Part shown: positions 18,122 to 53,125 of the stretch, piece after piece | Layout of the letters: every line of letters begins with the position of its first letter | How positions within the stretch are numbered: position 1 is the stretch's first letter | Position numbers and translations under genes: made by a program | Notes under the pieces: model-generated | What the model was told of the DNA's origin: nothing | Database searches by the model: none | What the model saw: the letters and a program-made list of their open reading frames with translations, nothing else | Assembly (NCBI GenBank): GCA_937915145.1 | Contig: CALDNT010000037.1 | Coordinates: 90,016-154,015, forward strand | Source: an uncultured Reyranella sp. | GTDB lineage: Bacteria > Pseudomonadota > Alphaproteobacteria > Reyranellales > Reyranellaceae | DNA: 64,000 nucleotides | Direction: 5' to 3'

Positions 18122-19998
18122 CACGCAGCCTTCATAGTCCGCGCAGCGCGCAGAAGTGTCCGGAGTTCCGGGCGGCAGGAACCACAGTTGGTGCCGGCGC
18201 GAGTGGCAGCACCAATTGAATCGAGCGTGATCGCGCCGTCGGCAATCGCCACCTTTACCGACGCACATGACACTCCGAAGCAGGCACAGATATCGTCGCC
18301 ACGATCGACCGCGTTGCCCCCGTTCAGCAGCGCGTTGCGATCTTCGACGCGCAATTGGTCCATTGTCATAAATGGAGCCAGCCGCTGGCGCGCCGCTTCG
18401 TCCCGCGACTCGCCGAGCATCACCATGGCTTCGAGCCGGCCATCGCTGATCACTGCACGAACGCCGAGTTCGCCGTTCAGCCACGGTCCGGGATTGGTTG
18501 CACTCACGGCCGCCGAGAGGGCCTGTTGTGCAAGTGCGAGCGGCTGCTCCCCCGCCAACAGATAGGCGTGATAGCCGGCGCCTCTCACTCGCGTCCAATA
18601 GGTCACTTCTGGCAGCATCACCGGCCTGATAGCGAGAATCGTGCCATGCCAACGCATATCTAGACGGCGAATTTCGACCGGTGTGTGCTTCAGCTCGGGC
18701 TGACCGGAGATCGGATCGACAGCCGGGTTGACGGCGACGTTGATGGCACCGGCCCGCGAAATCTGCGCCGTCCAGTGCATGGGAGCGAACACCTCGCCCG
18801 CCCGCACGGCGTCCGTCACATGTACCTTCAGCACGGCCCGTCCCCAGTCACTCGCCACTTCGGCAATATCGCCGTTCACAAGCCGGCGGACGGCCGCATC
18901 GGCAGGGTGCAGCTCGACCGTCGGCTCGGGCCGATGGCCGGCGAGACGGGCGGATTTCCCCGTCCGAGTCATGGTGTGCCACTGGTCGCGCACTCGTCCG
19001 GTGTTGAGGCGCAGCGGTTGCGCGGCGCTCGGCGCGTGGGCCGGCTCGCGTGGCACCGTCGCGATGAATCGCGCCCGGCCGTCGGAATGAAGGAAGCCAC
19101 CGTCGGCGAAGAAGCGCGCGCCGGTCCACGCCCGGTCCGCGCGGGCCGGCCAGATGAACGGTGCCAGGGACGCATAGTCGCGATCACTCAAGTCGGCGCG
19201 AGCGCCGATATCGAAGCCACGGGTTCCACCATTCTCAAAAGCGGAGAGGGCGGCATGCTCACGGAAGATGTCCGCAACGCTTGTCCACTCAAAGGCTTGT
19301 CCGAAACCCAGGCGGCGCGCGACCTCGGCGACAATCCACCAGTCCTGACGCGCCTCGCCCGGTACGGGCAGAAACGGGCGTTGGCGTGAGATGCCGCGTT
19401 CGGAGTTGGTAACTGTGCCGTCCTTCTCGCCCCACGCCAGTGCCGGCAAGCGGATACGGCAGGCATCGACCGTGTCGCTGGCGCGCACCGCCTCGGAAAC
19501 GATCGACAGATCGCAATCCCGCAGCGCCGCACGCACGGATGCGGCATCGGGCAGGCTGGCGACCGGATTGGTCGCCATGACCCACACCGCCTTGATCCGA
19601 CCGGACTTCACCGCCTCGAACAGCTCGACTGCCTTCAACCCCGGCCGTTGCGCCATCCGGGAGCTTTTCCAAAAGCGTCCGACGCGGGCGACATCCTCGG
19701 GAGTGAAGTCCATGTGGGCGGCCAGCGTATTGCTGAGCGCGCCAACCTCCCTGCCGCCCATGGCGTTGGGTTGGCCGGTGATCGAGAACGGCCCCATACC
19801 CGGTCGACCGATACGCCCCGTCAACAGATGACAGTTGATGATGGCATTGACCTTGGTGGCCCATGATGCCTCGCGACAGATCTCGACCTCGAGTCCGTGG
19901 CGGCCGAACACACCCAGTTCCTTCGCCAGCACGACCGGCGCGCAGTCAACGAGAGGGATGATCCTCAGCGTCAGCTTCGGTCGTTTCAGATCGGCCAT
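18121..19998 (-). pseudogene. Chimeric ORF: NasS N-terminus fused to truncated assimilatory nitrate reductase NasA
   Basis: This uninterrupted 625-codon frame joins two proteins. Residues 1-49 (LRIIPLVDCAPVVLAKELG and HGLEVEICREASWA) are the start of NasS/NrtA, a periplasmic-binding-protein-like nitrate sensor. From about residue 48 it is NasA: KVNAIINCHLLTGRIGRPG, then PFSITGQPNAMGGREVG, through to the molybdopterin-binding C-terminus and a BFD-like [2Fe-2S] domain. That last domain has CACFGV near 571 and NCGSC near 605. NasA's first 300 or so residues, with the [4Fe-4S] site and part of the cofactor site, are missing, as is nearly all of NasS. An in-frame deletion at a shared Lys-Val codon pair is the simple explanation. 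Nitrate reductase activity is unlikely. Confidence 0.85.
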
Positions 19999-27762: not shown

Positions 27763-28245
27763 CTATTTCTTCAAGAAGACCTTTGAGCAAACGGAGTCGG
27801 CGAAATCACCAGAGATGGCCCGCGCGCCGCCGGACAGCTTGGCTAATCCAATCAAGCCACTTCCGTGCGTCCTTTCCTGGACATAGTACTCTGCAGCAAC
27901 AGTATTGTTCTCGGGATTGACTAGCTTTACCTCCGCGGCGACTTCGTGGTTGTCAGCGAGAAGCATGGCCATACCGGTATTTGCCAGCTTGAAGTTGTCG
28001 AGTCGCACTTGCATGTCATACTTGATCGGGCCTCGTGCGCATTGCGCTATCTTCTGTTCAAGGGCCGTCCGCAATGCCTGAATGTCTTCCTCGCTGGCGT
28101 TCGGCGATCGATTAGCGATGGTGACGACTCCGATCGACGCAGCCGCAGCCGCAGAGGGACTCCAAGCCTGGATCGGCTTGACCGGTTCCGCGCAAGCAGA
28201 AACCAATAGAACGACAGTTAGCGCTGCCGCGATTCGACTCAGCAT
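27763..28245 (-). CDS. Orphan lipoprotein, hypothetical
   Basis: A 160-residue lipoprotein. MLSRIAAALTVVLLVSAC gives a signal ending in a VSAC lipobox with Cys at about 18. The rest includes two further Cys (IAQCARG and SVCSKVF) that could pair. No family is recognised. The base composition is lower in GC than the flanks, as in the divergent lipoprotein gene next to it. The ATG at 28245 is preferred over the track's 28293, which would place a charged extension before the signal. It is convergent with the CoA transferase, 4 bases apart. Confidence 0.62.
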   Translation of the reverse strand: MLSRIAAALTVVLLVSACAEPVKPIQAWSPSAAAAASIGVVTIANRSPNASEEDIQALRTALEQKIAQCARGPIKYDMQVRLDNFKLANTGMAMLLADNHEVAAEVKLVNPENNTVAAEYYVQERTHGSGLIGLAKLSGGARAISGDFADSVCSKVFLKK

Positions 28246-51829: not shown

Positions 51830-52093
51830 ATGGCTAATCACAAGTCGGCCCAGAAGCGCGCGCGCCAGACCGAGCGCCGCACAGCCGTGAATACCGCCCG
51901 CCGCAGCCGCGTGCGCGGCTCGATCAAGAAGGTCGAGGAGGCGATCACCTCCGGCGACAAGAATGCCGCCCAGGCGGCGCTGCGCGCGGCGCAGCCGGAG
52001 ATCCAGCGCGGCGCCATCAAGCGCCTCGTGCCCAAGAACACCGCCGCGCGTCGCGTGTCGCGTCTTGCGGCGCGCATCAAGGCGATGGCCTGA
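51830..52093 (+). CDS. rpsT: 30S ribosomal protein S20
   Basis: An 87-residue basic protein: [19 protein letters not shown], then [15 protein letters not shown] and [16 protein letters not shown]. It is the canonical S20 form. A promoter and an intrinsic terminator bracket it, so it is its own transcription unit. Its position left of dnaA is usual in alphaproteobacteria. Confidence 0.97.
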
Positions 52094-52120
52094 CACGCTC
52101 GCCACCTTCAGTGGATGTGA

Positions 52121-52150
52121 ACGCCGCTCGCCTGAGCGGCGTTTTCTTTT
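52121..52150 (+). terminator. Intrinsic terminator after rpsT
   Basis: ACGCCGCT-CGCCTG-AGCGGCGT is an 8-bp stem followed by TTTCTTTTT. It lies 28 bases after the rpsT stop and closes that transcript. Confidence 0.88.
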
Positions 52151-52169
52151 TCGGCATTCACATGCCGCA

Positions 52170-52419
52170 GAATCAAAAAAAATTTCGCGCGCATTCGACG
52201 AAGAATATTTGTCCGCCAATTGGGCGAACGACATACGATTCGCGTTTATCGCATCGTGCGAGCGTGCAGCCGCTAGATATTGAGCGCCATCGAGTGCACC
52301 GCATGTCGAGAAATCGAATCGCGAGAGTTGTCAATCGAGTCGCGCGGGGAACAGTCTGAATAGCGTGCGACGTTCCTGGTCTGAATCGTTTGCGCCGATC
52401 ATCGGGTCTGCTAAGAGTC
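52170..52419. promoter_or_regulatory. Cluster of GANTC (CcrM-type) sites upstream of rhodanese-dnaA
   Basis: Six GANTC sites lie within 250 bases: 52170, 52237, 52316, 52337, 52383 and 52415. About one would be expected at random. CcrM methylates GANTC in alphaproteobacteria and controls cell-cycle promoters including dnaA. The stretch 52151-52660 has no gene. It has AT-rich runs (AATCAAAAAAAATTT) but no clear DnaA box, so it is not called an origin. Confidence 0.5.
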
Positions 52420-52660
52420 GGCCCATCGCGACGGGCGTGGGGCGCTGGAACGCGAGCCAGGGCGGAGACGGGGGGCTTCCTCTTCGCTGATAGAACGAAC
52501 GAGGGGGCAAGCCGCAACGCGATAGCGACGATCAAAAAATCAAGCGTCCCGACCACGACGCTCATCAAGAATTTTTGTCGCTCTTGCTGCGCTGTACATC
52601 CTCCGTCGATCGTTGGCTCAGTGTTCGACGCCTTGCGAAGACAAATGAAAAGCGGGGGCC

Positions 52661-53125
52661 ATGCCGAAAGACAACAAGATCGCCGGCACATATGAGGTGT
52701 TCCCTGCGGCCGGTTATGCCGGTGACGTGGCGCCGGCGACGGCTTGGAAGATTCTCGGAGAACACAAGAACGCGATGCTGGTGGATGTCCGCACTCGCGC
52801 TGAATGGAACTTCGTCGGCCTGCCCGACCTCGCATCGCTGGCCAGGAAACCGGTGCTGGTCGAGTGGCAGGTCTTCCCGAGCATGCAGCCCAATCCGGAA
52901 TTCGTGAGCGCGCTGGCAGGCGCGCTCATGGACAAGGACGCACCGCTGCTCTTCCTGTGCAGGAGTGGAGCCCGATCGGCCGCGGCGGCGAAAGCCATGA
53001 CCGCGGCCGGCTACAGTAGATGTCTCAATGTGGCAGACGGCTTCGAGGGGCCCCTGGATGGCGAGGCCAAACGCGGCTCGGCAGGGGGATGGAAGACGGC
53101 AGGACTTCCGTGGAGACAAACGTGA
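52661..53125 (+). CDS. Rhodanese-like protein
   Basis: A 154-residue single rhodanese domain. LVDVRTRAEWNFVGLPDL is the substrate-binding start and LLFLCRSGARSAAAAKAM carries the active Cys in CRSGARS. DGFEGPLDG is the conserved close. It transfers sulfur to an unknown acceptor. The stop (TGA) overlaps a GTG of a possible dnaA start, and if the dnaA start is at 53197 they are 71 bases apart. Its presence between rpsT and dnaA is not universal. Confidence 0.88.
   Translation: MPKDNKIAGTYEVFPAAGYAGDVAPATAWKILGEHKNAMLVDVRTRAEWNFVGLPDLASLARKPVLVEWQVFPSMQPNPEFVSALAGALMDKDAPLLFLCRSGARSAAAAKAMTAAGYSRCLNVADGFEGPLDGEAKRGSAGGWKTAGLPWRQT

Follow-up and report, generated by a model that had tools for sequence, protein, structure and literature searches.

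Genes and features at the dnaA locus

Within the window, by which we mean the whole 64,000-nt stretch of DNA analysed here, the genes at the dnaA locus are arranged in the order rpsT, a gap, a rhodanese-domain gene and dnaA (Table 1). The genes that follow dnaA are presumably dnaN, recF and gyrB, named from their reading frames alone. Profile matches to PF00581 and TIGR00362 bear out the rhodanese-dnaA assignment of the downstream genes made in an earlier, sequence-only reading of this DNA, and comparison of DnaA places Reyranella soli closest among named isolates (93% identity). The non-coding region had been put at 510 bp; measured from the rpsT stop codon to the rhodanese start, it is in fact 567 bp long (52094–52660). 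Every Reyranella locus found (36 genomes of the genus were searched) has a rhodanese gene ahead of dnaA; among other alphaproteobacteria, a minority have one too. The stop codon of the rhodanese gene overlaps the possible GTG start codon of dnaA at 53122 (GTGA), which suggests translational coupling of the two genes.

Table 1. Features of the rpsT-dnaA region, in window coordinates
Feature	Position	Strand	Basis or remark
rpsT (ribosomal protein S20), upstream neighbour	51830..52093	+	PF01649, E 9.9e-27
rpsT intrinsic terminator, genus-conserved	52119..52152	+	11-pair stem, T-run; alignment
GANTC site 1 (GAATC)	52170..52174	.	not conserved in alignment
Conserved upstream block TTTGG...CATACGATTCG..TTTATCG	52208..52251	+	alignment of 31 species
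GANTC site 2 (GATTC)	52237..52241	.	kept in 30/31 species
GANTC site 3 (GAATC)	52316..52320	.	kept in 17/31 species
GANTC site 4 (GAGTC)	52337..52341	.	kept in 17/31 species, N varies
GANTC site 5 (GAATC)	52383..52387	.	ends one base upstream of -35 box; 23/31 species
Inferred -35 box TTTGCG	52389..52394	+	17–18 spacing kept in 30/31 species
Inferred -10 box TAAGAG	52412..52417	+	partial match to RpoD consensus (PMC8144410)
GANTC site 6 (GAGTC)	52415..52419	.	overlaps -10 box; 30/31 species
Structured 5' leader of rhodanese-dnaA operon, ~237 nt	52424..52660	+	covariation; start inferred
Helix 1, 5' arm	52452..52458	+	pairs with 52615–52621
Hairpin, helices 2 and 3	52461..52488	+	strongest covariation
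Helix 4, 5' arm	52514..52518	+	pairs with 52591–52595
Hairpin, helix 5	52543..52562	+	consensus structure
Helix 4, 3' arm	52591..52595	+	pairs with 52514–52518
Helix 1, 3' arm	52615..52621	+	pairs with 52452–52458
Helix 6, covers likely ribosome-binding stretch	52632..52656	+	95% paired, no double changes
Rhodanese-domain gene, operon's first gene	52661..53125	+	PF00581
dnaA	53197..54606	+	TIGR00362, E 1.4e-160; start 53197 or earlier GTG at 53122

Density and conservation of the GANTC cluster

As had been noted from the sequence, six GANTC sites lie between 52170 and 52419 (at 52170, 52237, 52316, 52337, 52383 and 52415), and this is the window's densest 250 bp for the motif. The accompanying estimate of about six times chance density holds against a uniform-base expectation; other yardsticks move it in both directions, up to ~12.6-fold over the average of the window (122 per 64 kb) or down to 2.6-fold over the dinucleotide-shuffled expectation of the same 250 bp (2.29 sites, with 1.2% of shuffles reaching six). 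Window-wide, GANTC is avoided, with 122 sites observed versus 293 expected from dinucleotide shuffles, and such avoidance has been reported across the alphaproteobacteria generally (PMC3973325). The second densest cluster of the window, at 28000–28240, has five sites in 250 bp. Equally dense clusters proved to be few: two other spots with six GANTC in 250 bp were found in 547 kb of sampled stretches of the same genome, a background that is biased towards clusters, and none equal to that at dnaA was found in 780 kb and 760 kb, respectively, of the complete relatives G016 and G022. The two spots in the genome itself (L184 ~3469 and L188 ~14693) precede, respectively, a gene for an RRM-type RNA-binding protein and a transposase-like gene.

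Because the local excess over shuffled sequence is just 2.6-fold, one genome alone is insufficient to settle the significance of the cluster. An alignment covered 31 distinct Reyranella-type gaps of 560–610 bp. All 31 species carry 4–10 GANTC in the rpsT-rhodanese-dnaA gap, 11.6 per kb versus roughly 0–3 per kb in the flanking genes; the dnaA gaps of other alphaproteobacteria (n = 69) average 4.9 per kb. The small single-sequence excess would be compatible with a chance product of local composition, but with sites present in every species and two of them kept in 30 of the 31, the cluster exceeds chance, and that explanation is scarcely credible and was rejected on the cross-species conservation. 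Several sites have a different N in different species but the same G, A, T and C (GAGTC/GACTC, GAATC/GATTC), as is expected if a methylation motif is under selection. Summed over the 31 species, the region upstream of the inferred transcription start contains 187 GANTC against 39.3 expected (4.8-fold), and the leader contains 21. Upstream of the start, GANTC ranks first in over-representation among the 16 motifs with the pattern XYNY'X', closely followed by CGNCG (4.3-fold), a frequent word in this GC-rich genome.

A promoter-like element at the downstream end of the cluster

The element TTTGCG-N17/18-TAAGAG was found in 30 of the 31 species, varying between TTTGCG (once TTTGCT), a spacer of 17 or 18 bases, and TAAGAG or TAAGAC (once TATGAG). 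At a constant distance 3' of it, again in 30/31 species, CATCGC marks the beginning of the conserved leader. The match to the Caulobacter RpoD consensus, TTGaCgS / GCtANAWC (PMC8144410), is partial only, with TTTGCGC agreeing at 5/7 positions and GCTAAGAG at 6/8 by hand count. A scan for E. coli-type sigma-70 promoters detected no promoter, and the CtrA site TTAA-N7-TTAA is not present. By its sequence, the element is a putative core promoter that carries conserved GANTC sites at its inferred -35 (23/31) and -10 (30/31) boxes. The conserved block farther upstream, which includes site 2, may be a second promoter or a regulator site.

CcrM and GcrA in Reyranella

The methyltransferase itself is encoded in the same genome, where a 368-aa open frame of CcrM type has the RAMA domain (PF18755, E 9.6e-18); CcrM with this domain was identified in 21 of 23 genomes of the genus, and the two without it are incomplete assemblies. 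GcrA (PF07750) was detected in none of the 23 at E <= 0.001, the best weak match having an E of 0.067, although the Caulobacter control was positive. It was likewise not found in the sister genus or the sister family (genomes G222 and G037), and the same search found it in several other orders. A GcrA too divergent for the PF07750 model might have escaped the search. Since gcrA and ccrM are reported to be consistently either both present or both absent (PMC3885167), a genus with CcrM and no detected GcrA is an exception to the reported co-occurrence.

Clustered GANTC sites are also found upstream of ccrM in nearly all genomes of the genus, with positions -69, -35 and -10 from the start codon recurring, which suggests that ccrM is probably under its own methylation mark. 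In the genome studied here, five GANTC lie just upstream of and at the ccrM start (L123 ~18508–18640, contig C300).

A probable structured leader ahead of the rhodanese gene

The sequence between the promoter-like element and the rhodanese start codon has a consensus fold of six helices, two of them long-range. Changes on both sides were found in 13 of 32 pairs, in 60 cells of the alignment, a level reached by 0 of 500 shuffles, and 94.9% of the leader cells pair, compared to 37–54% in controls with slid partners. G-U pairs are numerous on the + strand, which favours that strand as the RNA. Helix 6 covers the GCGGG of the likely ribosome-binding stretch; it shows no double changes, which makes this part of the model the weaker one. 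Rfam 15 gave no match at gathering score in this region of the window or in Reyranella or other dnaA loci; AsdA and a Burkholderia sRNA match below threshold only, and a known RNA family was rejected. A covariance model built from the first 88 nt of the leader found one place in the genome itself and one in each of two other sampled genomes of the genus. Outside the genus, its strongest match (L275, genome G264) was rejected as phage-like coding sequence, and further matches (L035, L055, L056, L061, G038, G219) are weak. The leader RNA is thus a previously uncatalogued conserved structure, so far seen in this genus only. The model had no match in the sister-genus or sister-family gaps, and with just two GANTC in the corresponding gap of the sister genus (G222), the arrangement is not family-wide.

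A compact, conserved structure could also be an independent small RNA, with the promoter serving it besides or instead of dnaA, and a transcript between rpsT and dnaA, sra10, possibly coding, has been reported in Sinorhizobium (PMC2245857). We regard this as improbable: the conservation extends to the start codon, the + strand has no terminator within 52424–52660, and helix 6 extends over the likely ribosome-binding stretch.

Relation to the chromosomal origin

A non-coding gap that adjoins dnaA, is less GC-rich (52–57% vs 65%) and holds many GANTC sites might be the chromosomal origin or part of one, and the earlier suggestion of an unusual origin was examined by GC skew in contiguous 400-kb stretches of the relatives G016 and G022. 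In G022 the cumulative skew minimum falls at 4,989,509, beside hemE (4,985,943–4,986,950) and 148 kb away from dnaA at about 4,841,600. The G016 minimum is noisy and therefore informative for side only and not for position; skew there is already positive at dnaA. hemE and parB are 137–164 kb from dnaA in these two complete relatives, the dnaA-hemE distance being 137–145 kb. DnaA boxes are missing from the window's gap, as originally stated: neither TTATCCACA nor TGATCCACA occurs in it with up to one mismatch. The dnaA gaps of some relatives have a single TTATCCAGA, and most hemE upstream regions carry DnaA boxes of the CGATCCACA type. On the skew and the position of hemE and parB, an origin at this gap was rejected as highly improbable, and the hemE upstream region is likely the oriC of the genus.

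The dnaA cluster is the densest GANTC cluster in the 400-kb stretches of both relatives, and the second densest in G022 is directly upstream of hemE. The hemE upstream region has its own cluster both in the genome studied here (L127 ~2509–2900, contig C18) and in G022 (near 4,987,089). In G016 (C1:1999322-2000325), hemE is split over two overlapping matches, reflecting a frameshift or an assembly error.

A model for the control of dnaA

The claim that the gap is a dnaA control region is strengthened by these results, in that CcrM is encoded, the cluster is genus-wide, and two of its sites lie on a promoter-like element upstream of a structured leader. Neither of the two findings that the earlier reading had named as counter-evidence, many equally dense non-coding clusters or a missing CcrM, turned up, the former within the sampled stretches. 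We consider it likely that the region is a CcrM-responsive promoter of the rhodanese-dnaA operon, operating without GcrA and followed by a structured 5' leader. As such, it would probably be a switch that sets the timing and amount of replication initiator made. The sites and their conservation, the encoded CcrM, the promoter-like geometry, the covarying RNA structure and the placement of the skew switch elsewhere are computational results; what is said of methylation, of its consequences for transcription and of the leader's function is proposed here by analogy with Caulobacter (PMC3973325, PMC4489657). In that organism, dnaA transcription is reported to respond to the methylation state of GANTC (PMC3973325, PMC2877005), the direct effect on the dnaA promoter being described as small (PMC3973325), and translation is controlled according to nutrients through a dnaA leader of 155 nt (PMC4489657). 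In Reyranella, CcrM would fully methylate the GANTC sites of 52170–52419 late in the cycle, and passage of the replication fork, which should reach dnaA early because the gene is ~140 kb from the origin, would leave the promoter sites hemimethylated. Hemimethylation may then alter use of the promoter by RNA polymerase or by another factor that is not GcrA, so confining dnaA transcription to part of the cell cycle. The transcript would open with the folded leader of ~237 nt, whose last helix is predicted to cover the likely ribosome-binding site, and the leader probably adds translational control.

A different account of the cluster is that the GANTC words merely happen to fall in promoter and regulator motifs conserved for protein binding, such as TANGANTC at the -10 box, and are methylated without regulatory effect. 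The best-kept sites are indeed embedded in longer stretches of conservation (CATACGATTCG, TAAGAGTC), the columns flanking site 2 match the site itself in conservation, and no GcrA was detected as a reader of the mark. This account would not readily explain the variation of N inside otherwise intact sites, the recurrence of the less conserved sites 3–5 as GANTC too, the enrichment here of a motif that is avoided elsewhere, or the same clustering upstream of ccrM and hemE, and we hold it to be unlikely. The preferred interpretation, a CcrM-responsive promoter with a structured leader, can be taken further, to a form in which GANTC methylation within the -35 and -10 boxes times dnaA in a genus lacking GcrA, hemimethylation is sensed by RNA polymerase or another reader, and the leader is a new regulatory structure; this fuller version is put forward tentatively. 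If true, it would join replication timing and translational control in one 490-bp module.

Comparison with known systems

Most work on CcrM control of dnaA comes from Caulobacter, in which GcrA is the reader of GANTC methylation; with CcrM and the conserved cluster present and GcrA not detected, the Reyranella-type bacteria make GcrA-free control by hemimethylation testable. The locus resembles the Caulobacter crescentus dnaA promoter in its CcrM-type methyltransferase, its GANTC at the promoter and the widespread rpsT-dnaA order. It differs in the 4–10 sites of the Reyranella gaps, of which two are joined to the inferred -35 and -10 boxes, in the rhodanese gene before dnaA and in the lack of a detected GcrA. 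Both organisms have a long leader ahead of dnaA with a plausible role in translational control; that of Reyranella is supported by covariation, has ~237 nt, lies ahead of the rhodanese gene instead of dnaA itself, and was found by its covariance model in this genus only. This covarying leader offers a concrete target for studying how a leader may control the synthesis of DnaA, a mode of regulation known so far from another lineage. With origins of the hemE type, such as Caulobacter Cori, the gap shares a non-coding GANTC cluster linked to replication control, but in the relatives it is the hemE region, and not the dnaA region, that has the skew switch and DnaA-box-like sites together with a GANTC cluster of its own.
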